Of a stretch of 64,000 nt of DNA, positions 2,589-53,068 are shown one piece after another. The stretch is from Tomitella biformata AHU 1821 (GTDB lineage Bacteria; Actinomycetota; Actinomycetes; Mycobacteriales; Mycobacteriaceae), in contig NZ_BAVQ01000013.1 of assembly GCF_000524475.1 (NCBI RefSeq), positions 1 through 64,000 of the forward strand. The letters run 5' to 3'. The notes below the pieces were generated by a model. That model ran no database searches. It saw only the letters and a list, made by a program, of their open reading frames with translations, and was not told the DNA's origin. The position numbers and the translations under genes are program-made. Position 1 is the first letter of the stretch, and every line of letters starts with the position of its first letter.

Positions 2589-3362
2589 TCAGGCCTTCTT
2601 GCCCGGGGCCCGCTTGGCGGCGGGAGCAACCGGAGCAGCCTTGGCAGCCGGGGTGGCCGGGGTGGCCTTGGCGGCCGGCTTGCTCGGGGCGGCCGGAGCA
2701 GCCCTCTTCGCGGCCGGGGCCTGCTTCTGCGCCGCCTCGGAAACCTTCGCGGCAGCCTCGGTGGCGGACTTCTTCGCCTTGTCGGCGATCTCGGTCACCT
2801 TGTCGGCAGCGTCGGCGCCGGCGTCGACCACACGGTCAGCAGCCTCGTTGAGCTCCTCGCCGGCATCGATGCTGGCATCGCCGATGCGGTTGGAGACCAG
2901 GCCGCCCAGCTTGGCGGCGCGCTCGCCGACCTCACGGGTACGGGCCGCCACGGTGCCGAGGGCCTCCTCGGTCAGCTCGCGGGCGTCGGCGACATAGGCC
3001 TCGGCGCGCTCCAGGTTCTCCTCGACCAGCGGCTGGTGGCGGAGGCGCTCGACGGCCCCCTCGCCGCGCTCTGCGAGGGAGTTGTACAGGTCGGTCGCGA
3101 CCTGGACGTACGCCTCGGCGACCTTGCGGAGCTCCTCGGGGGTGAACTTCTCGCGGAGGTCGGAGATCTGGGTGGGGACATCCTCGGGCAGCCCCTGCAG
3201 ACGCTCACGGGTCTCCTCCGCCTTGGCCTGCCAGTCCGCGGTGCGGGCCTCGGCACGCTCGCGCAGCTTGGTGGCGACCTCAGTCACGGCCTGCAGCGCG
3301 TAGTCGCCTGCACCGACGGCGGCGAACAGCGGGGTCTTTACATTCTCGATCGGGTTGGACAT
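2589..3362 (-). CDS. hbhA: Heparin-binding hemagglutinin (HbhA-like)
   Basis: A 257-residue protein. The N-terminus begins MSNPIENVKTPLFAAVGAGD and leads into a long coiled-coil region of about 150 residues (KLRERAEARTADWQAKAEE onward). The C-terminal third is rich in Lys, Ala and Pro with repeated KAAPVAPAAK-type units. This layout is diagnostic of HbhA, the surface adhesin of mycobacteria whose Lys/Ala/Pro tail binds sulphated glycans and which has also been linked to lipid bodies. The start at 3362 is chosen because AGGGAG lies just upstream and the domain begins there; the longer ORF adds 16 implausible residues. It follows the XRE regulator gene and was probably transcribed with it. Confidence 0.9.
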   Translation of the reverse strand: MSNPIENVKTPLFAAVGAGDYALQAVTEVATKLRERAEARTADWQAKAEETRERLQGLPEDVPTQISDLREKFTPEELRKVAEAYVQVATDLYNSLAERGEGAVERLRHQPLVEENLERAEAYVADARELTEEALGTVAARTREVGERAAKLGGLVSNRIGDASIDAGEELNEAADRVVDAGADAADKVTEIADKAKKSATEAAAKVSEAAQKQAPAAKRAAPAAPSKPAAKATPATPAAKAAPVAPAAKRAPGKKA

Positions 3363-6900: not shown

Positions 6901-9900
6901 CTACTGGTAGTTCCGCGACTTCACCGCCATCCTCAGGTCCAGGGGCTCGAGCCGCTCGGCGACCACGCTGACCGCGCCCGTCGCGTTCTGCACCTGCCCG
7001 CGCACCAGCAGCGCCGTCGCGGTGTGTGCCAGCTGTTTGTGCCGCGCCCACAGCCCCACCGAGCACACGACGTTGACCATCCCCGTCTCGTCCTCGAGGT
7101 TGATGAACGTCACCCCGCCCGCGGTGGCCGGGCGTTGGCGGTGCGTGACGGCGCCGGCGATAAGAACCCGGGAGCCGTCGCGCACCCCGAGCAGCCCGTT
7201 GGCCGGCACCACACCGAGCGAGTCCAGGTGCGCGCGCAGGAACTCGGTGGGATAGCTGTCCGGGGAGATGCCGGTGGCCCACACGTCCGCCGCCGCCAGC
7301 TCGAGCTTGCTCATACCCGGCAGCGACGGCGCGTTGGCCAGGGTGCCCAGTCCCGGCAGCTTGTCCGGGCGCTCGGCCGCCGCCGCACCCGCCGACCACA
7401 GGGCCTGGCGGCGGGTGGCCCCAAAGCAGTCGAAGGCGCCCGCCGTGGCGAGGGCCTCGGCCTGCGCGGTCGAAAGTTCCACCCGGCCGGTCAGATCCAG
7501 CATCGACGTGAAGTCGCCATCCGCGCGTCGGGCATCCTCTATCTCCTGTGCCTTGTCCGCCCCGAGGCTGCGGATCCCCGCCAGGCCCAGGCGCAACTGA
7601 AGACCGTCGCCCTCGAGGGTGGCCTCGGCCAGGCTCGCGTTGACGTCGACGCCGTGGACCACGACGCCATGCCGGCGGGCATCGGCGACGAGGGACTGCG
7701 GGGAGTAAAAACCCATCGGCTGCGCCCGCAGCAGCGCCGCGCAGAATGCCGCCGGGTGGTGCAGCTTAAACCACGCGGAGTAGAACACCAGCGCGGCGAA
7801 GGACTGCGAATGGCTCTCGGGGAAACCGAAATTGGCGAAGGCGTAGAGCTTCTCGTAGATCCGGTCCGCCTTCTCGCCGGTGATGCCGTGGAGCTGGCGC
7901 ATGCCGTCATAGAAGCGCCCGCGCAGCCGGTCCATCTTCTCCGGCGAGCGCTTGGAACCCATGGCCCGGCGCAGCTGGTCCGCCTCGGCCCCGCTGAACC
8001 CGGCGACGTCCACCGCCAGCTGCATCAGCTGCTCCTGGAACAGCGGGATGCCGAGGGTCCGGGCCAGCGCGGGCTCCATCGACGGGTGCTCAAAGCTCAC
8101 CGGCTCCGCACCGTTGCGCCGCCGGATATACGGGTGCACCGAGCCGCCCTGGATGGGGCCGGGGCGGATCAGCGCGACCTCCACGACAAGGTCGTAGAAG
8201 TTGCGGGGCTTGAGCCTGGGCAGTGTCGCCATCTGCGCGCGGGACTCCACCTGGAACACCCCGACGGTGTCCGCGCGCTGGAGCATCTCGTAGACGGCCG
8301 GCTCGGCGAGGTCGAGCTGCGCGAGGTCCACGGTGAGGCCCTTGTGCTCGGCAACGAGGTCGATCACGTAGTGCAGCGCGGACAGCATGCCTAGTCCCAG
8401 CAGGTCGAACTTCACCAGACCCACTGCCGCGCAATCGTCCTTGTCCCACTGCAGGACGCTGCGGTTCGCCATGCGGGCCCACTCGACGGGGCATACGTCG
8501 GCGACGGGCCTATCGCAGATCACCATGCCGCCGGAGTGGATGCCCAGGTGGCGGGGGAAGTCCTCGATCTGGCCGGCGAGGTCCAGGACGGCGGCGGGGA
8601 TGTCATGATGCTCGTCTTTCTGGCCGCCGACTCGGCCCCAGCGGCTGACCTGCTTGCTCCACGCATCTTGCTGGCCCGGCGAGAACCCGAGCGCGCGCGC
8701 CATGTCCCGCACCGCCGAGCGCCCCCTGTAGGTGATGACGTTGGCGACCTGCGCGGCGTGGGTGCGGCCGTACTTTTGGTAGACGTACTGGATGGCCTCC
8801 TCGCGGCGGTCGGACTCGATGTCCACGTCGATATCGGGCGGGCCGTCGCGGTCCGGGGACAGGAACCGCTCGAACAGCAGCCCGTTGCGGACGGCGTCGA
8901 CCGCCGTGATTCCCAGGGCATAGCAGACGGCGGAGTTCGCGGCCGAGCCCCGGCCCTGGCAGAGGATGTCGCTGCGCCGGCAGAACTCTACGATGTCCCA
9001 GACCACGAGGAAGTAGCCGGGAAAGTCCAGCTGCTCGATCACGGCTAGCTCGTGCTCAATCTGCTTGTACGCCTTGGGGTTCTCCCGCGCGCTGCCGTAG
9101 CGCCGGGCCGCGCCGCGCATGGTCAGCTCGCGGAGCCAGCTGCGCTCGTCGTGCCCGGTCGGCACATCGAACGGTGGCAGCTTGGGCGCGATCAGCCGCA
9201 GGTCGAACGCCAGCTCGCGGCCCAGCTCCGCCGCGTGCTCGACAGCCCCCGGGTACCGCGCGAACAGCGCCGCCATCTCCGCCCCCGAGCGCAGGTGGCC
9301 CCCGCCCGTCGGCGGCAGCCAGCCCGCGGCGTCGTCGAGGCTGCGCCGGGCCCGCACCGCCGCCATCGCCATCGCTAGGCGGCCGTTCTTGGGCGCCGCG
9401 TAGTGCGCGGCGGTGGAGGCGATCACGCCGAGGCGGTGGCGGCGGGCCAACTCGAACAGCGCGTCGTTGCGCTCGTCGTCCTCGGGCACGCCGTGCCGGG
9501 TGAGCTCGACGGTGACGTGCTCGCGGCCGAAGCGCTCGATCAGCTCCCCCAGCGCCGCCTCCGCCGCGGCGATCCCGCCGGCCGACTGTAGTGCCTTGCG
9601 CACGTGGCCTTTTCGGCAGCCGGTGAGAATCTGCCAGTGCCCGCCCGCCGCGTCGGCGAGCCCGTCGAGGTCGTAGCGGGTGTGCCCCTTCTGCCCGCCG
9701 GCCAGGTGCGCGGCGGAGATCTCGCGGGAGAGCCTGCGGTAGCCCTCCTGCCCGTGGGCGAGCACCAGCAGATGAGTGCCATCGGGATCCGGCCCGCCGC
9801 TGGCCCCGGCACGCTCTCCCGACGCGCCCAAGTTCAGTTCCGCCCCGAACACGGTCCGCATGCCGAGGCCCATCGCGGCCTCGGCAAAGCGGACCACGCC

Positions 9901-10188
9901 GTAGAGCCCATCGTGGTCGGTGAGCGCGATCGCCTCCAGGCCCAGCCTCGCAGCCTCCTCGATCAGGGCCTCCGGCTGGCTGGCCCCGTCGAGGAAGCTG
10001 AACGCCGAGTGGGCGTGCAGCTCCGCGTAGGGCACCGTCGTGCGCGGCGGCGCCACCTCGGGGGCCAGGTACTCCCCGCGTTTGCGGGACCAGGCGGGGC
10101 CGTCGCCGCCATCCCCCACCACGGGCGCACGGCCCGAGAGCACCCGCTCCATCTCCGACCAGGTCTGCGGGCCATCGCTCCAACGCAT
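6901..10188 (-). CDS. dnaE2: Error-prone DNA polymerase III alpha subunit DnaE2 (ImuC)
   Basis: A 1095-residue DnaE2, the catalytic polymerase of the actinobacterial ImuA'-ImuB-DnaE2 mutasome for SOS mutagenesis and damage tolerance. The N-terminal PHP domain begins at about residue 50 (YAELHAHSAFSFLDG, ALTDHDGLYGV). The palm carries the catalytic acidic motif GPPDIDVDIES. Then come the polymerase fingers (GSKRSPEKMDRLRGRF), helix-hairpin-helix and a C-terminal OB fold (VLIAGAVTHRQRPATAGG). The start at 10188 (MRWSDGPQTWSEMERVL) matches mycobacterial DnaE2 and has GGAAGGGG upstream; the upstream TTG is rejected. A LexA box lies about 60 bp upstream. The partners imuA'-imuB are 15 kb away in the same orientation. 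Confidence 0.95.
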   Translation of the reverse strand: MRWSDGPQTWSEMERVLSGRAPVVGDGGDGPAWSRKRGEYLAPEVAPPRTTVPYAELHAHSAFSFLDGASQPEALIEEAARLGLEAIALTDHDGLYGVVRFAEAAMGLGMRTVFGAELNLGASGERAGASGGPDPDGTHLLVLAHGQEGYRRLSREISAAHLAGGQKGHTRYDLDGLADAAGGHWQILTGCRKGHVRKALQSAGGIAAAEAALGELIERFGREHVTVELTRHGVPEDDERNDALFELARRHRLGVIASTAAHYAAPKNGRLAMAMAAVRARRSLDDAAGWLPPTGGGHLRSGAEMAALFARYPGAVEHAAELGRELAFDLRLIAPKLPPFDVPTGHDERSWLRELTMRGAARRYGSARENPKAYKQIEHELAVIEQLDFPGYFLVVWDIVEFCRRSDILCQGRGSAANSAVCYALGITAVDAVRNGLLFERFLSPDRDGPPDIDVDIESDRREEAIQYVYQKYGRTHAAQVANVITYRGRSAVRDMARALGFSPGQQDAWSKQVSRWGRVGGQKDEHHDIPAAVLDLAGQIEDFPRHLGIHSGGMVICDRPVADVCPVEWARMANRSVLQWDKDDCAAVGLVKFDLLGLGMLSALHYVIDLVAEHKGLTVDLAQLDLAEPAVYEMLQRADTVGVFQVESRAQMATLPRLKPRNFYDLVVEVALIRPGPIQGGSVHPYIRRRNGAEPVSFEHPSMEPALARTLGIPLFQEQLMQLAVDVAGFSGAEADQLRRAMGSKRSPEKMDRLRGRFYDGMRQLHGITGEKADRIYEKLYAFANFGFPESHSQSFAALVFYSAWFKLHHPAAFCAALLRAQPMGFYSPQSLVADARRHGVVVHGVDVNASLAEATLEGDGLQLRLGLAGIRSLGADKAQEIEDARRADGDFTSMLDLTGRVELSTAQAEALATAGAFDCFGATRRQALWSAGAAAAERPDKLPGLGTLANAPSLPGMSKLELAAADVWATGISPDSYPTEFLRAHLDSLGVVPANGLLGVRDGSRVLIAGAVTHRQRPATAGGVTFINLEDETGMVNVVCSVGLWARHKQLAHTATALLVRGQVQNATGAVSVVAERLEPLDLRMAVKSRNYQ

Positions 10189-10249
10189 GACGGACCCCTT
10201 CCCTGACAACTACGCACGGTCCCCGCCGCAGGGAAGGAGCGGCGGAGAA

Positions 10250-10265
10250 TAGAACGTTCATTCGA
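10250..10265 (-). promoter_or_regulatory. LexA (SOS) box of dnaE2
   Basis: Read on the minus strand, TCGAAT-GAAC-GTTCTA matches the actinobacterial LexA consensus TCGAAC-N4-GTTCGA at 10 of 12 defined positions. It is 62 bp upstream of the dnaE2 start, as expected for damage-inducible dnaE2. The divergent esterase gene starts 78 bp away on the other side and may also be affected. Confidence 0.75.
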
Positions 10266-10342: not shown

Positions 10343-11239
10343 TTGAACCTTGAGATGGCCATCGTCTCGGTGTATCTGCGCCGCACCCGCAAACCCGTCT
10401 GGTCCGATGTCGACCACTTCGCCAAGCAGCTTCGTGCCCCGAAAGCCGACCCGGCGCCCCCGCGCCGGCTGCGGTCCCGACACCTGGTCGAAGAGTCGAC
10501 GGTGCGGGGCTTCCGCCTCTTCACGGTGACGCCGCGGGCGGGCGCGACCGGCCGCGGCGTGCTGTATCTGCACGGAGGCGGGTATGTGAACTCGATCGCC
10601 CCGCAGCACTGGGCGCTGATCTCGAAGCTCGCCGATCAGGGCGCGACGGTGCGCGTGCCGCTGTACGGGCTGGCCCCGCAGCACACGTTCACCGAGGCCT
10701 ACGAGCTGCTCGACAAGGTCTACGACGGCCTGGCCGCCGACTCGGATGAGCTGGTCATCATGGGCGACTCCGCGGGCGGCGGCCTCGCTCTGGGCTTCGC
10801 CCAGACCCTGCGCGACGCGGGCCGGCCGCTGCCCCGGTCCCTGACGCTGATCGCGCCGTGGCTGGACATCGCGTGCCGCAATCCCGAGATCGACGCGCTA
10901 GAGCCGCTGGACCCATGGCTGGCCAGGCCCGGCGCGATCCTCGCCGGCCAGACGTGGGCCGCCGGCACCGACCGCGACAACCCGCGGCTGAGCCCCGTGT
11001 TCGGGGACATGACCGGGCTGCCGCCGCTGCACGTGTACTGCGGAACCCTCGACATCGTGTACCCGGACGTCAAGGTGCTGGCGCGGCGGGCGCGAGAGGC
11101 CGGCGTCGAAGTGGACCTGACCATCGCCGAGGGCGCCTGCCACGTGTATCCGCTGGTGCCGACGAGGGAGGGCCGGAGGGCGCGCGAGCGGATCGTGGCG
11201 ATGGCGGCGGGGGCAGATGATCAGTACAAACCAAGCTGA
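10343..11239 (+). CDS. alpha/beta hydrolase, hormone-sensitive-lipase type
   Basis: A 298-residue esterase of the HSL/acetyl-esterase family. The hallmark oxyanion motif HGGGY follows YLH, and the nucleophile elbow is GDSAGGG. A late Asp (CGTLDIVYPD) and His (ACHVYPL) complete the triad. Family members cleave short acyl esters or act on lipids; the substrate is not evident. The start is a TTG at 10343 with AAGGAG five bases upstream; the next ATG (10355) is too far from that site. The C-terminus overlaps the end of the convergent HEPN gene by 19 bp. It is divergent from dnaE2. Confidence 0.85.
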   Translation: MNLEMAIVSVYLRRTRKPVWSDVDHFAKQLRAPKADPAPPRRLRSRHLVEESTVRGFRLFTVTPRAGATGRGVLYLHGGGYVNSIAPQHWALISKLADQGATVRVPLYGLAPQHTFTEAYELLDKVYDGLAADSDELVIMGDSAGGGLALGFAQTLRDAGRPLPRSLTLIAPWLDIACRNPEIDALEPLDPWLARPGAILAGQTWAAGTDRDNPRLSPVFGDMTGLPPLHVYCGTLDIVYPDVKVLARRAREAGVEVDLTIAEGACHVYPLVPTREGRRARERIVAMAAGADDQYKPS

Positions 11240-11676
11240 CCGATGATGTTCTCCGCCGCCGTGACGATCGCCTGAGCGTGTTTGATTGCCACATCCGCCT
11301 CATCGACGGCGGCGTCGTCGCCGGGCCGCTCCGGATACTCCAACTCGTTGCGCCGTCTACGCAAAGCGCCGAACTGTCGAAAGCCCGGACCGAATTGTCC
11401 ACGCACGGCTTCCTCGACAGCGTAGTGCCCCCCTTTCGTCGTGGGCCGCAGTCCTTGATGTGCGAGCAGAGCGGTCACTGCCTGACGTGCCGCGTCATAG
11501 GCGAGTACAAAGGCCGAGTCTGGATCCCGCTTCACGGCTATCCTTGCCGTCTCCAGCGTGACCGCCGCCTTCTTCAGGAGCCGCTCGCCGCTAGCGGTCT
11601 CACCAGTGAGCTTCTGCAAAGCCCCGGACGCGACGAGCGCGTTGATCTCGTCTTCGCCACGCCTCCAGCGAGCCAT
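11221..11676 (-). CDS. HEPN-domain protein, partner of upstream nucleotidyltransferase
   Basis: A 151-residue helical protein with HEPN features: AYDAARQAVTALLAHQGLRP, then RGQFGPGFRQFGALRRRRNELEYPER. In HepT-type RNase toxins the motif is RX4HXY. Here the equivalent region reads RNELEYP, which keeps Arg, Asn and Tyr but has no His, so classical RNase activity is doubtful. The ATG overlaps the TAA of the nucleotidyltransferase gene by 1 bp, showing translational coupling. The pair resembles MNT/HEPN (HepT/MntA, type VII) toxin-antitoxin modules. The alternative is a two-subunit nucleotidyltransferase without toxin function. Confidence 0.75.
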   Translation of the reverse strand: MARWRRGEDEINALVASGALQKLTGETASGERLLKKAAVTLETARIAVKRDPDSAFVLAYDAARQAVTALLAHQGLRPTTKGGHYAVEEAVRGQFGPGFRQFGALRRRRNELEYPERPGDDAAVDEADVAIKHAQAIVTAAENIIGQLGLY

Positions 11677-12251
11677 TATGCCTCGAACACGACTGTGAAC
11701 GCCGACGCCCTGATCTGGGCGACGAGCACATCAGCGGGATCCTGATACTGCTGAGCAGTACGCACAACCGGATTGACCTCGATACCGAGCCGCGCCTGCG
11801 CCCGGTCGGCCGCATCGTATACATCGGCCCGGTCGACCTTGCCGACCACCAGCACATCGATGTCCCGCGGCGGAGGTCCGGCCGCGCCGGCATACCGTGC
11901 CGCCCATGACCCGAAGATCAGCACCTGCTCGACGCCGTCGACTGCGAACTCTTCGGCGATCACCACCTTCGGCCCGAAGGTTATCTCCAGCAACTGGGTG
12001 AGGGCTGGAGCAGCGGGGTGGCTGGTGTTGGCCCGCACCAGCCGGTTTCGCCCCAGCGTCCGACTAGTCACAAGGTCCGCTTCGTCAAGACGGACCACCT
12101 CGCGATGCAAAGTGGATAGCGGCACCTTCAAGCGCGCAGCAAGATCGCTCACACCGAACTCCTGGTCAGGGTGCAGCATGAGCCACATCAGCAACTCCGC
12201 CTGATGTTGCGACCGGAACACTGGCAGCAACGCAGGACCAACACTACGCAT
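11676..12251 (-). CDS. winged-HTH/nucleotidyltransferase (MNT-like) protein
   Basis: A 191-residue two-domain protein. Residues about 10-75 form a winged helix-turn-helix (FGVSDLAARLKVPLSTLHREV). Residues about 95-180 form a minimal nucleotidyltransferase with the active-site pattern GS(W)...DIDVLVVG. The spacing between GS and DxD is 14 residues, longer than the usual 10, because of a GAAGPPP insert. In HepT/MntA systems this enzyme AMPylates and neutralises the HEPN toxin; the fused wHTH suggests it also represses its own promoter. The start at 12251 sits about +1 from a strong promoter, so the mRNA is probably leaderless; the longer ORF start at 12296 lies upstream of the -35 and is rejected. 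Confidence 0.82.
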   Translation of the reverse strand: MRSVGPALLPVFRSQHQAELLMWLMLHPDQEFGVSDLAARLKVPLSTLHREVVRLDEADLVTSRTLGRNRLVRANTSHPAAPALTQLLEITFGPKVVIAEEFAVDGVEQVLIFGSWAARYAGAAGPPPRDIDVLVVGKVDRADVYDAADRAQARLGIEVNPVVRTAQQYQDPADVLVAQIRASAFTVVFEA

Positions 12252-12257
12252 AACTGA

Positions 12258-12287
12258 AAGATATCTCCCACTTAAAGGGATTGTCAA
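12258..12287 (-). promoter_or_regulatory. Leaderless promoter and dyad for the MNT/HEPN operon
   Basis: On the minus strand there is TTGACA (12287-12282), an 18-bp spacer, and TATCTT (12263-12258), with the ATG six bases after the -10. The transcript would start at or next to the start codon. The spacer contains TCCC-N7-GGGA with a partly paired interior (12266-12280), well placed for autorepression by the wHTH domain. Confidence 0.65.
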
Positions 12288-12295
12288 TGGTGGCA

Positions 12296-13636
12296 TCAGA
12301 TCCGCTCCGAGATCCGCTCCCGATGCCCCGTCAGATCCGCGAGCTCCGCCGCCACCTGCCCCGCACGCCAGCCAGCCCCGTTGGTGACGGCGGTCGACGT
12401 CTGGCCCACCTCAGGAAATTGCCGCTCGAACACCTCTCCTACCGCTTCGGCCCGGGCCGCCATGATCGGCACCAGTTGCGTCCCATACTGGACCTCCGCC
12501 TCCCGGCTGGCCCCCTCCTTCGCCTCCAGCAACCGCTCCCCGATCCGGTGGGCGAAACCGATCAGGAAGGACCGTCGAAAGCTCGGCGCACGGTTCAATC
12601 GCTGCCCGCCGCCGGCCTCCGCCATCGCGTTCGATGCCTGCACCAGCAAGGAGGTGTAGAGCAATTCGCACAGGTCCAGGTCCACGGGCAGGCCGACGCA
12701 GCTGGCCAGGCCCAGCCCGCCATGCCAGAGCGCCTGAATGCCGTTCGCATTGGCGACGCTATTGAGCAGCTGCATCTTCGCTTCCGGATACGGGTTGTCG
12801 ATGAGCAGTCGACGCGTGCGCACCTCATCGACGAGCGAGGCGCCATCATCCGCGTCGACGACCGCGCTGTCGAGCGCATAGCGGGTCATCAGGTCCTGGG
12901 CCTTCGCGGAGAGCGACTCGGCCTCCGCGGCGAACGTCGTCGACTCCGCCTTCGCCAGCAGTCCGCGGATCCTGGCGAGCACACGCGGATCCGCCCCGCT
13001 ACGACCTGAGGGCCGGGCGCTCGCGCGGCCCCACTTCGAGGGGACCGGGATCAGAGGCTCCATCCTCGGTAGCCGGCCGCAGTGCCCGAGGACCTGCAGG
13101 ATCGCCGTCCATGCCTTTGCGGGGTCGCCGCCCTCTGATTGCCGCCAGTGCGTCACCATTGCCTGAGTGGGGAGGAAGGCGGGCAGCTTCATTTCCTCGA
13201 GCTGTTCTCGCCACTGTGCCGGAGCCGTCGTGTGGGCGCTGGTGCGCGAGGCGTGATAGCCGACTGCGGTGGTCACCAGGCGCGTAGCCCGCGCATCGAA
13301 CTCCCTGCGCACACAGTGCACCGCCTCCGCAGGCTGCCATCCGTTCGCGAAAAGACCGTCGAGGGTCAGGTCGAACATTTCCGACAGCCGGGCATCCGCA
13401 ATCGCGCGATCCGGGTGGGTGTCCCGCTCCGTCAGCTCCGCCACCACGTTGCTCAGATACGCCGCGTGGGAGCTGCCGCGCGCCGCGTAGTCGATCCCGG
13501 CATATACCAACTCCTCCACCTCGGAGAGCCAGTTCCCAGCGCCTCCCCCACTGCGACCCCGACCGGACTGCCGCTGATCACGCCGCTGTTGCTTCCGCTT
13601 GCGGGCGGCCCGATTCTGCTGGTTGTTGCGGCTCAT
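12296..13636 (-). CDS. DUF2786 domain-containing protein
   Basis: A 446-residue protein. It begins with a very basic tail (MSRNNQQNRAARKRKQQRRD) suggestive of nucleic-acid binding. The DUF2786 motif is at about residues 235-275 (DPRVLARIRGLLAKAESTTF, then LSAKAQDLMTRYALD). A helical C-terminal region includes SFRRSFLIGFAHRIGERL, a segment typical of DUF2786 proteins. The function is unknown. The start at 13636 has AAGGGGA upstream; the ORF continues 150 codons further back through the promoter and opposite strand of the CMD gene, which is rejected as shadow. Confidence 0.82.
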   Translation of the reverse strand: MSRNNQQNRAARKRKQQRRDQRQSGRGRSGGGAGNWLSEVEELVYAGIDYAARGSSHAAYLSNVVAELTERDTHPDRAIADARLSEMFDLTLDGLFANGWQPAEAVHCVRREFDARATRLVTTAVGYHASRTSAHTTAPAQWREQLEEMKLPAFLPTQAMVTHWRQSEGGDPAKAWTAILQVLGHCGRLPRMEPLIPVPSKWGRASARPSGRSGADPRVLARIRGLLAKAESTTFAAEAESLSAKAQDLMTRYALDSAVVDADDGASLVDEVRTRRLLIDNPYPEAKMQLLNSVANANGIQALWHGGLGLASCVGLPVDLDLCELLYTSLLVQASNAMAEAGGGQRLNRAPSFRRSFLIGFAHRIGERLLEAKEGASREAEVQYGTQLVPIMAARAEAVGEVFERQFPEVGQTSTAVTNGAGWRAGQVAAELADLTGHRERISERI

Positions 13637-29423: not shown

Positions 29424-29868
29424 TCGTATCGTCAGCACCTCCACCCGCCGCCGCTCCCTTGGGTCTGCTGTTCGACCTGGTCTTCGTCGTCGCCGTCAGT
29501 CTGGCCTCGGCGGGCTGCACCGCGAGATGCTGCCCGAGTTCCCCCGCCCTACCTCGGGTCGATCCCCTTGTGCTCGGCCTGCGGCTCGGGTGGACGTCCC
29601 GCCGGGCGAACCGCGCCGACACCAAGCCTGCGGCAGGCCGGGCAGCTCCCGGGATCCTCGCCGTCACCGCGATCGCCGTGTCCAACGGCGGCGACAACGG
29701 GATGCCGGTGGTCCTCATCGCCATCGGCCTCACGATCATGATCGGCGTCGTGGCGTTCGGCCTCTGGCCGGGGCCGCGGTGCCCATGGCCCCCATCCGCG
29801 CTGCGCGCCGCCCCGAACGGTCGTATCGTCAGCACCCTCCACCCGCCCAGGCGAAGGGACCGACCGCT
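29424..29868 (+). pseudogene. Decayed fused remnant: partial ltrA copy plus CadD-like fragment
   Basis: Positions 29459-29517 encode LLFDLVFVVAVSLASAG, identical to the first helix of the intact LtrA protein. The similarity then breaks, and after about 130 bp the same frame encodes LAVTAIAVSNGGDNGMPVVL, which resembles the first helix of the CadD cadmium-resistance transporter family (VTxxxxANGGDN). The upstream 26 bp (29424-29449) are repeated almost exactly in front of the intact gene (29821-29847). A 137-residue ORF spans it but is unlikely to make a functional protein. It looks like a tandem duplication followed by deletions. Confidence 0.55.
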
Positions 29869-31047
29869 GTGATCACCTCCATGCGCCCGCGCGACCCCGC
29901 CGAGGAGCACCGCGCCGCCACTCCCCTGGAGCTGCTGTTCGACCTGGTCTTCGTCGTCGCGGTCAGCCTCGCCTCCGCCGGAGTCCACCACGAGATCTCG
30001 GCGGGCCACGTGGCGAGCGGGCTCGTGGGCTTCGGGATGGTGTTCTTCGCGATCTGGTGGGCGTGGATGAACTTCAGCTGGTTCGCCAGCGCCTATGACT
30101 GCGACGACGCGCTCTACCGCGTCACCACCCTGGTGCAGATGTCCGGCGTGCTGATCCTCGCCGCCGGCATCTCGGATGTGTTGGAGCACCGCAGCTTCAC
30201 CCTCGTCGTCGTCGGCTATGTGGTGATGCGCGTGGCGATGGTCAGCCAGTGGGTCCGCGCGGCGCGGGCCGACCCGCCCCGCCGCCGCGTCGCGCTCGGG
30301 TACGCGGCCGGTATCGCCGTCGTGCAGATCGGCTGGGTCGCGTGGCTGGCCGTGCCCGAGCCGTGGCAGCCGTGGACCTTCCTGGCGCTGATGCTGTGCG
30401 AGCTGGCGGTGCCCGCCGTCGCGGAACGCCAGGGCCCGACGACGCCGTTCCATCCCGAGCACATCGCCGAACGCTATGGCTCGTTCACCCTGATCGTCCT
30501 GGGCGAGTCGGTGCTGGCCTCGACCACTGCGATCATCGCCGCCCGGCACGAGGTGGAGCACCTGGGCGCGCTGGTCGTGATCGCCGCCAGCGCCATGGTG
30601 ATCGTGGCCAGCATGTGGTGGCTGTACTTCGACCGGCCCCAGCACCACCTGCTCGGCGGAATCGGAGCCTCGCTGCGCTGGGGCTACGGGCACTACCTGG
30701 TGTTCGCCGCCGCGGCCGCGGTATCCGTCGGGGTGGAGATGGCGCTCGACGTTCGCAGCCCCGGTGCCACGGTCTTGGGCACGAGCCAAGCCGCCGCCGT
30801 CGCCACCGTGCCGATCGCCGTGTTCATCGTGATGTTCTGGTTCCTGGCTCTGCGGTCGGTGCGGGACGGGGTGCTCGACGCGATCGCGCTCGGCGGGGCC
30901 ACCGCAGTCGGGGCCTCGACGTTCCTGCCCGAGTCCCTGCCCATAGCTGCGGGGCTGACCGTCCTCACGGTGCTGGCGGTGTCCGTCCGCCGCCGAGGCC
31001 TGGAGTCGGCCTCCAGCTCAGGCCAGGCCCCCAGCGCCACTGCGTAA
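29869..31047 (+). CDS. ltrA: Low-temperature requirement A (LtrA)-family membrane protein
   Basis: A 392-residue protein of the LtrA family with about 12 hydrophobic helices. It starts HRAATPLELLFDLVFVVAVS, the family signature, followed by FFAIWWAWMNFSWFASAYD, and has ERYGSFTLIVLGESVLA in the middle, which is the second hallmark. The function of LtrA is unknown (named for cold growth in Listeria). The start is GTG 29869 with GAAGGGA ten bases before; ATG 29881 is an alternative. A degraded partial copy lies directly upstream. Confidence 0.87.
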   Translation: MITSMRPRDPAEEHRAATPLELLFDLVFVVAVSLASAGVHHEISAGHVASGLVGFGMVFFAIWWAWMNFSWFASAYDCDDALYRVTTLVQMSGVLILAAGISDVLEHRSFTLVVVGYVVMRVAMVSQWVRAARADPPRRRVALGYAAGIAVVQIGWVAWLAVPEPWQPWTFLALMLCELAVPAVAERQGPTTPFHPEHIAERYGSFTLIVLGESVLASTTAIIAARHEVEHLGALVVIAASAMVIVASMWWLYFDRPQHHLLGGIGASLRWGYGHYLVFAAAAAVSVGVEMALDVRSPGATVLGTSQAAAVATVPIAVFIVMFWFLALRSVRDGVLDAIALGGATAVGASTFLPESLPIAAGLTVLTVLAVSVRRRGLESASSSGQAPSATA

Positions 31048-31301
31048 TGAGATCGACGGCTAGCTCAATTCAGTTCTTGTGCTGTCGTCTATTTTCACCA
31101 AGATAATGATCTATCAATTCCGAAACACCAGTCATCCCTCCGAAACCTTGGCATGCAGAAAATGAGGATGTAGTTACCATTGCGAACTAGATTAGAGCGA
31201 ATGTCCATATAAATTCAGAATTTCTATTATGTTCGTCGAGTATGGCTAATTCTATGGCCGCCCCGCGCCGGACGCGGAATACTCGAAATGGAAACATCAC
31301 C
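31048..31301. other. AT-rich intergenic region before the secreted beta-propeller gene
   Basis: About 250 bp between ltrA and the propeller gene, visibly more AT-rich than the rest of the window (for example TATAAATTCAGAATTTC near 31208). No ORF or hairpin stands out. Such islands often mark transferred DNA silenced by Lsr2-type proteins and contain the promoter of the following gene. Confidence 0.4.
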
Positions 31302-32600
31302 ATGTCCATAATTGAACGGTTCCCCTCGAGCGCACGACGATCTCGGATATCGGCGGCCCTCGGCGGCGCGATATTGATCGTCGGTGCCATCCTCACCGCC
31401 GCAGGACCCGCATCCGCCGCCAGCGTCATCACCGAGGTGACCGTCGGGGAAATGCCGATCAGGGTGGCGATCGCACCCGACGGCCAACGCGCCTACGTCA
31501 CCAACCGGGGCAGCAACACCGTGTCGGTGATTAACACAGAGGCCAATGAAGTCATCGCCACCATTGACGTTGGCCGGACTCCGTACGGGGTGGCGGTCAC
31601 CCCAGACGGATCGCGCGCCTACGTCACCAACCACGGCGGCCACTCGGTGTCGGTGATCGACACAGAGGCCAATAGTGTCGCGACCACCGTCCAGCTCCCG
31701 ACCGGTTCAATTCCCCGTGCCGTGGCAATCACCCCCGACGGGCAATATGCCTATGTCGTCCATCAGTCCGGAGCCACTGTTTCGGTGATCGACACCGACA
31801 CCAATACCGTCGTTGGCACCATCCGTGTCGGCGCGGGCCCACGGGAGGTGGCGATCGCGCCCGACGGCCTGCATGTCTATGTCACCGACAATATCGATAA
31901 CACGGTGTCGCAGATCAGCACGGAAACTAACACGGTTGTCGACACAATCTCCGTCGGCACGGACCCATTGGGCGTGGCAGTCACGCCCGACAGCCTCGGT
32001 GTCTACGTCGTCAACAACACCGATAACACGGTGTCCCAGATTGATGTGGCCACGGGAATAGCCACCGCCATCCCCGTCGGCGCGAAGCCCATGAACGTGG
32101 CAATCACCCCGGACGGCCAACAGGTCTATGTCACGAACCACAGCGACAGCACCATGTCTGTGATCGACGCCGGATCCAGCGCCGTCACCAGCACGTTTCT
32201 TGTGGGGAAAGGCCCTGAGGGGTTTGCGATCACCCCCGACGGCCTAGGCGCCTACGTCGCCCAGTCTGGCAGCGGCCTGGTGTCGGTCATCGCATTCGAT
32301 CAGGCGCCGACCATCAGCGGCACACCGCCCGCCGGCGGCGTCGGGCAATCCTACGACCACACCTTCACCCTCACCGGAGAGCCGATCCCGACCACCCACG
32401 TCACCAGCGGCGCTCTACCCGAAGGCATGGAACTCTCGCTCGACGGCGTCTTGTCCGGCACCCCCACCGAACCCGGGCAGTTCGCGTTCACCGTCACCGC
32501 GTCCAACGACGTAGGCGCCGACGTGGGGCTGCCCGTCGTCCTCGACATCACCACCGACACCCCGACGCCCGCGCTCGGCTCACTCGGGAGCGTCGGCTGA
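31302..32600 (+). CDS. Secreted YVTN-type beta-propeller with Ig-like domain
   Basis: A 432-residue exported protein. Residues 1-45 are a signal peptide (RRSRISAALGGAILIVGAIL, cleavage probably after GPASAA). Then come seven repeats of about 42 residues of the type PDGxxAYVTNxxxNTVSVIDT, forming a beta-propeller (YVTN/YncE family). Residues about 330-415 form a He_PIG/immunoglobulin-like domain (PPAGGVGQSYDHTFTLTGEP, LPEGMELSLDGVLSGTPTEPG). The tail is GSLGSVG, with no sortase or membrane anchor. The start at 31302 has GGAA upstream and leaves out the first 20 codons of the frame. The binding target is unknown; surface adhesion is possible. Confidence 0.85.
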   Translation: MSIIERFPSSARRSRISAALGGAILIVGAILTAAGPASAASVITEVTVGEMPIRVAIAPDGQRAYVTNRGSNTVSVINTEANEVIATIDVGRTPYGVAVTPDGSRAYVTNHGGHSVSVIDTEANSVATTVQLPTGSIPRAVAITPDGQYAYVVHQSGATVSVIDTDTNTVVGTIRVGAGPREVAIAPDGLHVYVTDNIDNTVSQISTETNTVVDTISVGTDPLGVAVTPDSLGVYVVNNTDNTVSQIDVATGIATAIPVGAKPMNVAITPDGQQVYVTNHSDSTMSVIDAGSSAVTSTFLVGKGPEGFAITPDGLGAYVAQSGSGLVSVIAFDQAPTISGTPPAGGVGQSYDHTFTLTGEPIPTTHVTSGALPEGMELSLDGVLSGTPTEPGQFAFTVTASNDVGADVGLPVVLDITTDTPTPALGSLGSVG

Positions 32601-36137: not shown

Positions 36138-37007
36138 TCACAATGCCGCCGCACCGCCTCGATTCTCGGCGACCTGCCGCCGGATCGCCGGGATGACCTC
36201 CCCGGCCAGCCGGCGCAGCTCGTCGTCGTCCGCGGCGTCGAGGACGAAGGTGTCGATGCCGTGCTCGACGGCGAGCCCCGCGCATAACCGCACCAGCTCG
36301 GCGGTCTCAGCCTTGCCATTGATGTTGAGGATGCGGCGGATGGCCGAGGGTTCGCGGCCGGCCTCGCCCGCGGCGTCGTCAATGCGGGCGCTGGCCTCCG
36401 CGATGCCCTTGTGGTCGATGTAGCCGAGGGAGGGCAGCCAGCCGTCAGCCTGCACGCCGACCAGCCGCAGCATCCTGGGCTTGTAGCCGCCGATCCAGAT
36501 GCCGATCGGGTGCGCGGGCGCGGGGCCGGGGTGGACTCCAGCAAGCGAATAGAACTCACCGTCGTGGGAGACGGCGCGCTCGTCGGACCACATCAGCCGC
36601 AGCACCTCGATGGCGTCCGTGAGCGCGCCGACGGCCTCGCCGGGTGTGCGCCGAGGCCCGCCCATCGCGGCGATGGCGTCCCAGAACGCGCCGGCGCCGA
36701 GGCCGAGCTCGACGCGGCCACCGGTCAACACGTCCAGGCTCGCCGCGGCCTTGGCGAGCATCGCGGGCGTGCGCAGCGGCAGGCTCGCCACATCCGGGAA
36801 CAGGGCCACGCGGGTGGTGCGCGCGCCGAGCACGGACAGCAGCGTCCATGCGTCGAGGAAGCGCCGCTGGTAGGGGTGGTCCTGCACGCCGATCAGGTCG
36901 AAGCCCAGCTCGTCGCACAAAATCCCGGAGCGGAGCACCGCCGCGGGGTCCGCCGCGGTTGGTGTCAGGAAGTATCCGAACTGCAACTCACGCCCGTAGT
37001 CAGCCAT
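36138..37007 (-). CDS. LLM-class F420-dependent oxidoreductase
   Basis: A 289-residue luciferase-like TIM-barrel enzyme: LQFGYFLTPTAADPAAVLRS, the conserved GLGAGAFWDAIAAMGG, and the family motif HPIGIWIGGYKPRMLRLVG. Mycobacteriales enzymes of this group use coenzyme F420 to oxidise or reduce alcohols, hydrocarbons or sugars. The start at 37007 begins the conserved fold; upstream in-frame ATGs are rejected because they lie over a direct repeat and the divergent gene. The substrate is unknown. Confidence 0.86.
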   Translation of the reverse strand: MADYGRELQFGYFLTPTAADPAAVLRSGILCDELGFDLIGVQDHPYQRRFLDAWTLLSVLGARTTRVALFPDVASLPLRTPAMLAKAAASLDVLTGGRVELGLGAGAFWDAIAAMGGPRRTPGEAVGALTDAIEVLRLMWSDERAVSHDGEFYSLAGVHPGPAPAHPIGIWIGGYKPRMLRLVGVQADGWLPSLGYIDHKGIAEASARIDDAAGEAGREPSAIRRILNINGKAETAELVRLCAGLAVEHGIDTFVLDAADDDELRRLAGEVIPAIRRQVAENRGGAAAL

Positions 37008-37030: not shown

Positions 37031-37060
37031 GGTCACGCGCCGAGGAATCTGCGGGTCGCC
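37031..37060. repeat. Direct repeat copy 1 flanking fcs-like gene
   Basis: 30 bp identical at 28 positions to 38994-39023. The second copy is the 3' end, including the stop codon, of the isomerase-like gene; this first copy is a detached duplicate that reads ATRRFLGA-stop on the minus strand. The two copies bracket the feruloyl-CoA-synthase-like gene. Confidence 0.75.
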
Positions 37061-37149
37061 ACCTCGACCCCAAAGTAGACTGCTGGACGTGACGCGCGCC
37101 ACTGACTGGACGTCCGACACCGTGCGCGGCTAGCGAGAAGGGATTGACC

Positions 37150-38961
37150 ATGACCCACCCCCTGTTCTCCTCGCCGTCGATCAGTGTCGACCAGCACGAC
37201 GACGGAAGCATTGTGATCGCCTCCCGAGACCCCTTGCGCCCCTATCCGACCAGCGTCGTCCACACATTCCGAGCCCTCGCCGCAGCACATCCCGAACGGG
37301 TCCTGATTGGTCAGCGGGGCTCGGATGGGCAGTGGCGCACGTGTACCTGGTCGCAAGCGCGCCGCCGCGCAGACCGGATCGCCCAAGGCCTGCTTGATCG
37401 TGGACTGGCTGATCAGCCCATCATGATCTTGTCGGGTAACAGCATCGACCACCTGATCCTCACGCTCGCGGCCTATACCGTGGGAGCACCGGTGGTCCCG
37501 ACCAGCGTCGCCTACGCCCTGCAGAGCGAGGACCACCACAAACTGAAGGCCGTGGCCGAAGTGGCCCATCCCGCGATGATCTTCGCGGAGGATTCCGCCT
37601 ATCGCGGCGCGGTGGAGGCAATCGGGGTCCAATCCACAGTCGTCTCGGCGACCGGAGATCTCCCCGGCTCCCTCGCCCTGACCGGACTGGAGGCGACGCC
37701 CGGGGACGGCGTCGAGGCCCGGTTCAGCTCGATCACGCCGGACACCGTCGCCAAGATCATGTTCACCTCGGGCTCCACCGGGACGCCGAAGGGCGTGCTC
37801 AACACGCACGGCATGCTGAGCGCGAACCAGCAGCAGATGCGCCAGGTATGGCCCTTCATCGCGGCCGAACCCCCGATCCTGCTCGATTGGCTGCCGTGGA
37901 GCCACACCTTTGGCGGCAACCACAACCTCAACCTGGTGCTGACCAACGGGGGCAGCCTATGGATCGACGACGGCCGGCCCAGCGCCAGCGGCATCACCCA
38001 AACCGTCGCCAATCTCGCGGATGTCCAACCCACTATCTACTTCAACGTGCCTGCGGGGTACGCCGCCCTGATCCCCATCCTGGAACGCGATGACGCCGTC
38101 GCCGCGTTGTTCTTCAAGAATCTTCGCCTCGGCTTCTTCGCCGCGGCCGCACTCCCCCAATCCCTCTGGGAGCGGCTGACCGCCCTCGCCGCAGCACACG
38201 ATTCCGCGATGCAGATGACAACCTCGTGGGGAATGACCGAGACGGCTCCCGCCGCCACCAGCACCCACTTCCCCATCACCCGCAGCAACAGCATCGGAGT
38301 GCCGTTGCCGGGGGTCGAGCTCAAGCTTCAGCCACACGGCGAGAAAATCGAGTTGCGGCTTAAAGGGCCCAACGTCACGCCGGGGTTCTTCGGACGCCCC
38401 GACCTGACCGCCAGCGAATTCGACAGCGAAGGCTATCTCCGGACCGGTGACGCGGTGGCCTTCGTCGACCCCGCAAATCCCGCGCTGGGGCTGACCTTCA
38501 ACGGACGGATCGCGGAGGATTTCAAGCTCGACACCGGCACCTTCGTCAGCGTCGGCACGCTGCGCCCGAACCTGTTGTCCGCGATGGGAGGACTCCTGAC
38601 CGACGCCGTCATCTGCGGACAGGACAACACCTATGCGGCGGCGCTCATTTGGCTCCACCCCGAATACGCGGGACACTGCTCGGCGGAGGGCATGCCCGAC
38701 GATTGGCTCCGCGAGCGTCTCACCGTCGGCCTTGACACGCTCGCATCCACCGGCACGGGATCATCCGGCCGCGTCGAACGCCTTCTCATCCTCCCCGAGC
38801 CGCCCAATCTTGATGCCGGCGAGATCACCGACAAGGCCTATGTGAACCAGCAAGCGTGCCGGGATCTGCGGCACACGGATGTGTCCCGGCTGCTTAGTGT
38901 GAACCCCGAGAGCGCCGTGATCCTGCGGCGCACAACAGAACTGCCGCCTCGCTCGCACTGA
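37150..38961 (+). CDS. Feruloyl-CoA-synthase-like acyl-CoA ligase
   Basis: A 603-residue ANL-superfamily ligase: AMP-binding motif IMFTSGSTGTPKGVLNTHG, the adenylation motif MTTSWGMTETAPAATSTHFP, GYLRTGDAVAF and the C-terminal IAEDFKLDTGTFVSVGTLRP, which is characteristic of feruloyl-CoA synthases (Fcs). It would activate a hydroxycinnamate or related aryl acid to its CoA ester. There is no enoyl-CoA hydratase/lyase (Ech) or vanillin dehydrogenase beside it, as normal Fcs operons have. AAGGGA before ATG 37150 supports the start. It lies between two 30-bp direct repeats, suggesting insertion. Confidence 0.82.
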   Translation: MTHPLFSSPSISVDQHDDGSIVIASRDPLRPYPTSVVHTFRALAAAHPERVLIGQRGSDGQWRTCTWSQARRRADRIAQGLLDRGLADQPIMILSGNSIDHLILTLAAYTVGAPVVPTSVAYALQSEDHHKLKAVAEVAHPAMIFAEDSAYRGAVEAIGVQSTVVSATGDLPGSLALTGLEATPGDGVEARFSSITPDTVAKIMFTSGSTGTPKGVLNTHGMLSANQQQMRQVWPFIAAEPPILLDWLPWSHTFGGNHNLNLVLTNGGSLWIDDGRPSASGITQTVANLADVQPTIYFNVPAGYAALIPILERDDAVAALFFKNLRLGFFAAAALPQSLWERLTALAAAHDSAMQMTTSWGMTETAPAATSTHFPITRSNSIGVPLPGVELKLQPHGEKIELRLKGPNVTPGFFGRPDLTASEFDSEGYLRTGDAVAFVDPANPALGLTFNGRIAEDFKLDTGTFVSVGTLRPNLLSAMGGLLTDAVICGQDNTYAAALIWLHPEYAGHCSAEGMPDDWLRERLTVGLDTLASTGTGSSGRVERLLILPEPPNLDAGEITDKAYVNQQACRDLRHTDVSRLLSVNPESAVILRRTTELPPRSH

Positions 38962-38993
38962 CCGCGTGCAGCGCCAAGGGGGAAGGCCGGCAT

Positions 38994-39023
38994 GGTCACT
39001 CGCCGAGGAATTTGCGGGTCGCC
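38994..39023. repeat. Direct repeat copy 2 (3' end of isomerase-like gene)
   Basis: Matches 37031-37060 at 28 of 30 positions. It encodes the last codons (ATRKFLGE) and stop codon of the isomerase-like gene, so the target of the duplication is a gene 3' end, as in site-specific integration or a partial gene duplication. Confidence 0.75.
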
Positions 39024-39870: not shown

Positions 39871-42192
39871 TCAGTCCGCCCATGCCTCGGCGGCCCGCTC
39901 CGTCTCCGCGATGACGAGGGCGGCGACGCCCTCGGGACCCGGCGTGTAGGTCACGGCACGCAGCCCGCCAGTGTAGCGAAACACGCCGCGGCGCGCCCGC
40001 AGGTCACAGGAGACCGGCCCGCGGGCGTCCACGCCAACCGAGATCCCCGTCCACGGCGCCATCCCGACGAGCTGCGGCACGCGCAGAGCACCTCCGGTCG
40101 GCTCCCCGTCCACGAACACGTCCAGGTCCCATCGCACATGCGGCGCCACCGCCGCGGACAGCTCCACCAGCCGCGCGCCGACTGCCAGCGGCCCGCAGTC
40201 CAGCTCGGTGTAATCACCAAAGGCGTTGTAGCCCAGCCAGAGCCGGCCGCTCTCGACGAATAGCAGGTAGCCGCCCTGCGGGTCACCGTGGGCCAGCAGC
40301 ACGCCCTCGTCGCCGCGCTCGAAGCCCGTCAGCTCCACGGCGGCGTCCCAGTCCCGGTAGGCGATCAGCCGCGAGCTGCGGTAGCGCTCCAGGACCGGAC
40401 TGCCGGCGAGGATGCGGACGGGGCGGGCCAGTCGCTGCTCGTCCGGTCGCCGACGCTGCCCCACCCTGTTGCCCAACAGCGGGAAAACGGTGTTCGCCCA
40501 GGCCGCCTCGTCCCACGCCTGGGCCAGCTCGGCCACCAGCTCGGGGTGCTCGGCGGCGAGGTCGCGCAGCTCCGTGGGGTCCTGGAGCACGTTGAACAGC
40601 TGCCAGCGCGGCTCGTCCAGGCTCGCGGCGGGGTCGAGCAGGGTCGGGTTGAGCGCCAACAGCTTCCAGCCGTCGCGGTAGTAGCCGCGGTTGCCGGTCA
40701 TCTCGGTGTACTGCTCGTTGTGCGCGGTCACCGCTGACCGGTCCCGCAGGAACCCCGCGGCGGAGACCCCGTCGAACCCCTTCGCGACCAGCCCGTGGCG
40801 GGCGGAAGGCCGCGCGACCCCGGCCAGGTCCAGCAGGGTGGGGGCGAGGTCAGTGACGTAGGCGAACTGGTCGCGGATTCCGTTGTCCCCCTCCGCCGTC
40901 GACAAGCCGGCGGGCCAGGACAGCAGGAACGGCACGCGCACCCCGCCCGCGTAGGACTGGCCCTTGTAGAACCGGAAGGGCGTGTTCGACGCCTGCGCCC
41001 AGCCGCGCGGGTAGTGCACGCCCAGGCGGGCTGAGCCGATCAGCGCCGGGTCGTGCGGGACGTCGCCGACCCACGCCGGGTCGTCCACGCGGGCGAACTC
41101 CGCGAGGTAGCTGCGGGTGCCCTCCGGCCCGCCCTCCGCGGTGCCGCCGTTGTCGGTGGTGAACACGATGATGGTGTTGTCGGCCTCCCCCAGCTCGTCG
41201 AGAGTGTCGAGGATGCGGCCCACGGACTGGTCGACCGAGTCGACCATCGCCGCGTACACCTCCTGGTAGCGGGCAAAGCGGTCCTGCTGGTCCGCGGTGA
41301 GCGAGTCCCAGGCGGGAACATCGAAGCCGCCCAGCACGTTTCGCGCGTCCTCGGTGCCCGCGGGGAAAAGCCCGGCCGCGAGTTGGCGGGCGAACCGGGA
41401 CTCGCGCACCTCGTCCCAGCCGGCCGCGTACTTCCCCCGGTGCCTGGCGATATCGCTCTCCTTCGCTTGCAGCGGCCCGTGCATGGCCACGTGCGCGAAG
41501 TAGAGGAAGAACGGCTTGTCCGCGTCGTGCGCCCGGAGATCCTTGATGTAGGAGACGGCCTTGTCGGTGAGGTCATCGGTCAGGTAGTAGCCCTCCGGGT
41601 ACTCGTCGGTGTCTACCGCCGAGTTGTCCGAGACCAGCTGGTTGGGGTGGAAGAAGGAGTTGAGGCCCTCGAGGGAGCCGTAGTACCGGTCGAAGCCGCG
41701 CTGCGTGGGCCAGGAGTCCCGCGAGCGCCCGGGCCCCAGGTTCGCGTCGCGGACCAGGTGCCATTTGCCGACGGCGTAGGTGGCGTAGCCGCCGTCTCGG
41801 AGGATCTCTGGCAGGGTCAGCACGTCGTCGGCGAGCTCCAGCCGCAGGCCGGGGTAACCGGGGTCGGCGTTGGCGACGAATCCGTAGCCCGCCCGGTGCG
41901 GGTTGAGCCCCGTTAGCAGCGCCGCGCGGGACGGGGAGCACAGCGGCGTGGTGTGGTAATTCGTCAGCCGCACACCGGAGTCCGCGATCCGGTCCAGGTT
42001 GGGCGTGGGGATCTCGGAGCCGAAGGGTCCGATGTCGGAAAAGCCCATATCGTCGATGAGCACCACCACGATGTTGGGTGCGCCGGCTGGGGCGGTGGCC
42101 ACGGCGGGCCAGCTTGGGGTGGACGCAGCAGCGGTGCGGCCGACCGTGCCGCCGAAACCTTCGTAGCCGCGGGCATTCTCGGGAATGGGCAT
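39871..42192 (-). CDS. Type I sulfatase (arylsulfatase family)
   Basis: A 773-residue alkaline-phosphatase-superfamily sulfatase. The metal ligands Asp47-Asp48 are in VVLIDDMGFSDIG; the catalytic Cys85 in LCSPSRAALLTG matches C-x-P-x-R/C-x-S-x-R, which must be converted to formylglycine by FGE; no FGE gene is in the window. Further active-site motifs are GKWHL, FAHVAMHGP and TTDNGG. A C-terminal 130-residue beta domain follows. It hydrolyses sulfate esters. There is no clear signal peptide, so the enzyme may be cytoplasmic, acting on imported esters, consistent with the divergent ABC importer. It is preceded by a possible 27-codon upstream ORF. Confidence 0.9.
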   Translation of the reverse strand: MPIPENARGYEGFGGTVGRTAAASTPSWPAVATAPAGAPNIVVVLIDDMGFSDIGPFGSEIPTPNLDRIADSGVRLTNYHTTPLCSPSRAALLTGLNPHRAGYGFVANADPGYPGLRLELADDVLTLPEILRDGGYATYAVGKWHLVRDANLGPGRSRDSWPTQRGFDRYYGSLEGLNSFFHPNQLVSDNSAVDTDEYPEGYYLTDDLTDKAVSYIKDLRAHDADKPFFLYFAHVAMHGPLQAKESDIARHRGKYAAGWDEVRESRFARQLAAGLFPAGTEDARNVLGGFDVPAWDSLTADQQDRFARYQEVYAAMVDSVDQSVGRILDTLDELGEADNTIIVFTTDNGGTAEGGPEGTRSYLAEFARVDDPAWVGDVPHDPALIGSARLGVHYPRGWAQASNTPFRFYKGQSYAGGVRVPFLLSWPAGLSTAEGDNGIRDQFAYVTDLAPTLLDLAGVARPSARHGLVAKGFDGVSAAGFLRDRSAVTAHNEQYTEMTGNRGYYRDGWKLLALNPTLLDPAASLDEPRWQLFNVLQDPTELRDLAAEHPELVAELAQAWDEAAWANTVFPLLGNRVGQRRRPDEQRLARPVRILAGSPVLERYRSSRLIAYRDWDAAVELTGFERGDEGVLLAHGDPQGGYLLFVESGRLWLGYNAFGDYTELDCGPLAVGARLVELSAAVAPHVRWDLDVFVDGEPTGGALRVPQLVGMAPWTGISVGVDARGPVSCDLRARRGVFRYTGGLRAVTYTPGPEGVAALVIAETERAAEAWAD

Positions 42193-52585: not shown

Positions 52586-53068
52586 ATGCATTCTCATCGC
52601 ACGTTTCGCCGCCCATCCACCCTGCTCGTCACAGTGGCAGCGCTCTCCGCGCTCGCACTGACCGCGTGCAGCAACAGCGAGCGCGCCTCGACCGAGACCA
52701 CTACCGCAAAGCCGACGACATCGACGACCACAACGGCCGCTGGCGCCTCGCTCGGCGGCAAGACGTTCACCGCCACCGAGATCACCGGCCACACGCTCGT
52801 CGAGGGCAGCGAACTGACGATCGCGTTCGAGGACGAGACGATCGCGGTGCGGGCCGGCTGCAACAGCATGCACGGCGGCTACACCTTCGACGAGGCCACG
52901 CTCGCGGCGCCGATGTTGGCGGGCACCATGATGGCCTGCGAGCCTGAGCTGATGGACCAGGACCAGTGGGTCGGCGCATTCCTCGCCGCCGCGCCCGACG
53001 CCGAACTGTCCGGCAAGACGCTGACCCTGACCTCCGGCGAGACCGCCATCGTGCTCACCCAGGATTAG
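52586..53068 (+). CDS. META-domain lipoprotein (HslJ-like)
   Basis: A 160-residue lipoprotein: signal peptide STLLVTVAALSALALTAC with the lipidated Cys28, a Thr-rich linker (ETTTAKPTTSTTTTAAG), and a META/HslJ domain (LGGKTFTATEITGHTLVEG, IAVRAGCNSMHGGYTF, GTMMACEPELMDQDQ). META proteins are envelope-stress-linked; the two Cys of the domain may form a disulfide. It ends 7 bp before a strong hairpin. AGGAGG lies 20 bp upstream, rather far from ATG. Confidence 0.87.
   Translation: MHSHRTFRRPSTLLVTVAALSALALTACSNSERASTETTTAKPTTSTTTTAAGASLGGKTFTATEITGHTLVEGSELTIAFEDETIAVRAGCNSMHGGYTFDEATLAAPMLAGTMMACEPELMDQDQWVGAFLAAAPDAELSGKTLTLTSGETAIVLTQD

Follow-up and report, generated by a model that had tools for sequence, protein, structure and literature searches.

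Small variable segments with short flanking direct repeats are common in bacteria and have been attributed largely to illegitimate recombination; in comparisons between bacterial species, 10–18% of small variable segments are flanked by direct repeats, mostly shorter than 30 bp (PMC2884548). In Mycobacterium avium, linear DNA is inserted by illegitimate recombination, with deletions in 13 of 13 sequenced cases, and the word "duplication" is absent from the paper (PMC3511198). Direct repeats in M. smegmatis favor the precise deletion of the segment lying between them (PMC3519483). Integrative elements that use the 3′ end of a protein-coding gene as attB leave a direct repeat of this end, which restores the gene.

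The locus described here lies in a 64,000-nt stretch of DNA (hereafter, the window) and consists of a feruloyl-CoA synthase-like (fcs-like) gene between two 30-bp direct repeats that correspond to the 3′ end of a neighboring isomerase gene. Like the microdiversity loci of PMC2884548, it comprises a single small segment at one locus, with short direct repeats and no mobile-element genes; it differs from them in that the ~1.9-kb insert carries a whole enzyme gene, the 30-bp duplication is of a coding 3′ end, a second, templated patch is present at one junction, and no empty allele was found in the genomes searched. With the mycobacterial integration of linear DNA (PMC3511198) it appears to share a non-homologous, one-off insertion of ~2 kb in a related actinobacterial group, whereas a 30-bp duplication stands in place of the 2–669 bp deletions of the experimental insertions. 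Integrative elements resemble the locus in that a gene 3′ end is repeated directly and the gene thereby restored, but the insert has neither an integrase nor an element backbone. Finally, in a sister species the aerobic benzoyl-CoA (box) cluster includes a member of this ligase family, placed between boxB and a cupin gene, whereas in the present genome the ligase lies on another contig, apart from the cluster.

Structure of the locus

The LLM, isomerase and sulfatase genes of the locus are all on the minus strand, and the fcs-like gene is the sole plus-strand gene among them. The features, in window coordinates, are the following:

36138–37007, minus strand: LLM-class oxidoreductase gene (luciferase-like, F420/FMN type), with a start at 37007 supported by aligned relatives
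37031–37060, minus strand: left 30-bp copy, a detached isomerase 3′ end (ATRRFLGA, TGA and 2 nt), its TGA 25 nt ahead of the LLM start codon
37061–37149, plus strand: 5′ leader of the insert, with a GAAGGGA ribosome-binding-like site just before the fcs ATG
37150–38961, plus strand: fcs-like gene, intact, 603 aa, a predicted AMP-forming acyl/aryl-CoA ligase with motifs TSGSTGTPKG, RTGD and GEITDK
38947–38972, plus strand: 26-nt patch at the right junction, identical to 52647–52672 at 25 of 26 positions and holding the fcs stop codon
38994–39023, minus strand: right 30-bp copy, the authentic isomerase 3′ end including the stop codon
38996–39817, minus strand: xylose-isomerase-like TIM-barrel protein gene (AP_endonuc_2), intact
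39871–42192, minus strand: sulfatase gene, upstream of the isomerase on the same strand
52647–52672, plus strand: sequence from which the patch was apparently copied, lying in a META-domain lipoprotein gene (52586–53068) and encoding part of its signal peptide (LALTACS)

The two 30-bp copies are direct repeats identical at 28 of 30 positions, exactly as the initial annotation had described them in coordinates, orientation and identity. They bound the insert (37061–38993) precisely, a feature expected of an insertion that duplicates its target site. The right copy encodes the isomerase C-terminus ATRKFLGE, followed by TGA (38998–38996, minus strand) and 2 nt more, and is thus the true gene end that the annotation took it to be. 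Its description of the left copy as detached was equally accurate: upstream of this copy the reading is FGVEV, where the isomerase has HLAA, and we found no further isomerase sequence there, identity being limited to the 30 bp. Both mismatches between the copies alter an amino acid, with no synonymous difference. The same annotation had considered that the left repeat might be the coding end of a real gene finishing at 37033; we rejected this gene, as the minus-strand ORF ending there runs antisense to fcs and has no match in Pfam.

The match between the two copies is far beyond chance. Only one other direct pair in the 64 kb reaches 28 of 30 positions (29460/29927), and it lies within a gene, in a 69-nt repeat (29446–29514 and 29913–29981) of 87% identity. 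None of 60 order-3 Markov windows contained such a pair, and the best match to the 30-mer in other long loci was 20/30. When the 30-mer was compared with the whole 4.7-Mb genome, the partner copy was the sole other good match (E 5e-6), the next ones being at chance level. Hairpins at the repeats were no more stable than those of shuffled sequences. A YncE/lactonase-like beta-propeller gene elsewhere in the window (31242–32600) has internal repeats of ~126 nt.

The right junction carries a second copied stretch. Within the patch pair, an exact 23-mer at 38950 recurs at 52650, 13.7 kb away, and no exact repeated 23-mer was present in 100 Markov windows of order 3 or 5; the best match to the 26 nt in the other sequence scanned (816 kb counting both strands) was 19/26. 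This patch suggests patchy end repair; with a copied stretch at either edge of one insert, patchy repair synthesis is a better fit than a defined element. The 26 nt also resemble a common signal-peptide motif, so that their origin could be partly convergent. The C-termini of the fcs family vary, so that a native fcs 3′ end was not necessarily lost.

The fcs-like ligase

The fcs-like protein contains an AMP-binding domain (PF00501, 1.5e-51), and its closest NCBIfam model is PRK12582, for which it scores 677 bits, under the cut-off of 777. It matches plasmid-borne annotated feruloyl-CoA synthases at 42–44% over 96% of the length. A full-length alignment and the AMP-binding motifs are common to the window ligase and to the feruloyl-CoA synthase-like/PRK12582 acyl-CoA synthetases, whereas the window ligase falls below the NCBIfam cut-off and has no ech or vdh neighbors. 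We regard the product as a putative ligase that activates plant-type aromatic acids and is related to feruloyl-CoA synthase.

The distribution of fcs is sporadic: at E < 1e-60, it was present in 6 genomes of the family (401 searched) and 3 of the class (395 searched). Codon use, which the initial annotation had proposed as a check, is ordinary, fcs ranking 26th of 43; because it is not unusual, a recent foreign origin is not indicated. No sigma-70 promoter was found.

Probable mode of insertion

Removal of the insert (37061–38993) leaves the isomerase stop codon ~25 nt before the LLM start, and isomerase and LLM were thus probably once adjacent, in tandem. The arrangement in which isomerase adjoins LLM was not found in the genus genomes, in 301 family genomes per protein, or in the fetched neighborhoods. 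Genus genomes showed no DNA-level synteny at the locus, the window genes matching scattered places; the named genome contigs searched for the isomerase gave two distant matches only, and nothing in the plasmid collection matched across the locus. Since the empty site was not found in any searched genome, we infer both the ancestral order and the target duplication.

The reading we favor, at about an even chance of being right, is a single illegitimate insertion of fcs at the isomerase 3′ end, with a 30-bp target duplication, a templated right patch and presumed service to the box pathway. The starting point would have been a minus-strand tandem of sulfatase, isomerase and LLM. The fcs gene would have entered once, exactly at the isomerase 3′ end, by illegitimate recombination that was neither site-specific nor transposon-borne, and staggered-break fill-in, or copying during repair, would have doubled 30 bp of the target. 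After this duplication, the isomerase would have retained its stop codon and LLM its own start. The right junction would have been patched with 26 nt copied from the lipoprotein gene 13.7 kb off, the fcs stop codon now falling within the patch. The repair mechanism is what we infer in this scheme, and the main argument against it is that illegitimate insertions in M. avium came with deletions, a 30-bp duplication being atypical there. Given the repeat-driven deletion known from M. smegmatis, the insertion may revert at a low rate.

End repair might instead have filled both junctions, copying 30 nt of the isomerase 3′ end into the left one and 26 nt of the lipoprotein gene into the right one, in which case a prior isomerase–LLM adjacency is unnecessary. 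Two independent patches with sources within 14 kb, both edging the same insert, fit this scenario; we nonetheless consider it unlikely, as it needs the direct orientation and a stop codon at an operon-like distance from the LLM start to have arisen by coincidence, whereas target duplication needs neither coincidence.

The geometry of the locus also recalls a site-specific element that integrated at the isomerase 3′ end, as the attachment site of its tyrosine or serine recombinase, so that the gene end was restored and fcs remained as cargo: the insert sits at a gene 3′ end, the stop codon is restored, and the 30-bp direct repeats differ by two mismatches, as between attL and attR. Such a relic has nothing positive in its favor beyond this geometry, and we judge it improbable. 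Integrase, transposase or other recombinase families were absent from the 24 gene products scanned (31–59 kb), the genome holds no third copy of the 30-mer, and the viral contigs searched with it contained no exact core; in addition, the insert is 1.9 kb with a single gene, and one of its ends is patched. The initial proposal of integration into a gene 3′ end with target duplication therefore survives as an insertion with duplication, for which the 25-nt LLM spacing and the repeat of exactly 30 bp make the best case, and is not supported as a site-specific element. We rejected tRNA-linked integration, as no tRNA is present in the window. We also rejected an IS or transposon insertion, as no transposase family is represented at 31–59 kb and comparison of the insert ends by eye showed them not to be inverted copies of one another.

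A second isomerase copy that once lay between isomerase and LLM, with fcs replacing all but its last 30 bp, recalls the duplicated isomerase of the sister genome G003 (a full copy and a 5′ fragment 1.4 kb away), but is very unlikely, because the shared codons, including the stop, lack synonymous change and the similarity ends abruptly upstream, unlike that of a diverged paralogue. In G003 (locus L056), the isomerase gene occupies 7697–8545 and the second, 5′ partial copy 9944–10261, so that the genus offers a further example of partial duplication in this gene family. ORFs resembling tyrosine recombinases, as judged by eye, lie near this duplicated isomerase (11144–13455).

Under the favored insertion reading, the scar resembles that of a common single insertion and not a mobile element, an event of a type already known. 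The locus is a readable case of a lone catabolic gene found at a distance from the cluster of its pathway, with no mobile element involved; it is of value for its clean scar, for the second templated patch and for the comparison with the sister species' box cluster. Because the laboratory insertions in M. avium gave deletions rather than duplications, the 30-bp duplication and the 26-nt patch turn the route of repair into a testable question.

The box cluster and possible sources of fcs

A search with BoxB from the sister genome G002 gave an 86% match on another contig of the present genome, C111. The genes of this region follow the G002 order: boxC, boxB, cupin, semialdehyde dehydrogenase, enoyl-CoA hydratase and amidohydrolase, the names cupin and amidohydrolase being judged from sequence with no family search behind them. 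BoxB (TIGR03225, 768 bits) and BoxC (TIGR03222, 852 bits) both score above the curated cut-offs, and the dehydrogenase is of the PRK11903/PaaZ type. The earlier view that fcs stands alone, with no pathway partners, thus holds for the interval between the repeats, which contains the fcs-like gene only, and not for the genome. From its remote locus, the ligase presumably serves the box (benzoyl-CoA) pathway on C111, acting in trans.

The fcs-like gene of G002 is flanked by boxB and the cupin gene. The box cluster of G003 is ~90% identical and lacks fcs at this site, where it retains a 62-bp internal fcs fragment from around the nucleotide-binding loop (L133, ~3142–3204; 79% identity, E 4e-11; protein FASGFTGAPKGVINARGTLTA, E 4e-8). 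The G002 gene and the G003 relic together place fcs next to boxB in the common ancestor of the two, with a later loss in G003; the relic shows that the same gene has also been lost from a box cluster. In the present genome, fcs occurs at the window locus only, and the C111 cluster contains no fcs or fcs relic above background.

The window gene may have moved here from the box cluster of the same genome, or it may be a separate acquisition; we keep both readings in view of the 61% identity to the G002 gene, a tree without clear order and the ordinary codon use. Separate acquisition, for example from a thiolase–fcs type of cluster as in genomes G220 or G404, is compatible with the favored insertion reading, and we put it a little short of an even chance. 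It is consistent with the identity between the window and G002 fcs, 61% as against 70–86% for the box neighbors; with the fcs tree, which groups the window, G002 and G220 genes (82/88) with no clear order within the group and hence no firm placement of the window gene with that of G002; and with a 13-nt stretch of the fcs leader that matches the thiolase 3′ end upstream of the G220 fcs at 12 of 13 positions, a weak match (E 0.23). Against it stand the codon use of fcs, ordinary for the window, and the absence of fcs from the genome's own cluster exactly where the sister species have or had it.

A broader view, in which fcs is a one-gene nomad of the genus, gained and lost at separate loci (the box cluster and the isomerase–LLM junction) through a process that is repeatable, needs no element, duplicates ~30 bp and patches junctions with nearby sequence, strikes us as highly improbable.

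Around the G002 fcs, we found no flanking direct repeats like the window pair. A palindrome-like site (TCTACA...TGTAGA) precedes boxB and some of the fcs genes (L125, ~13100; L062, ~8250; L133, ~3100; L145; L146) and is possibly a candidate common operator; the leader of the window fcs has no clear copy of it. In G002, a 17-bp tandem repeat array (L062, 10280–10398) separates the fcs-like gene from the cupin gene.
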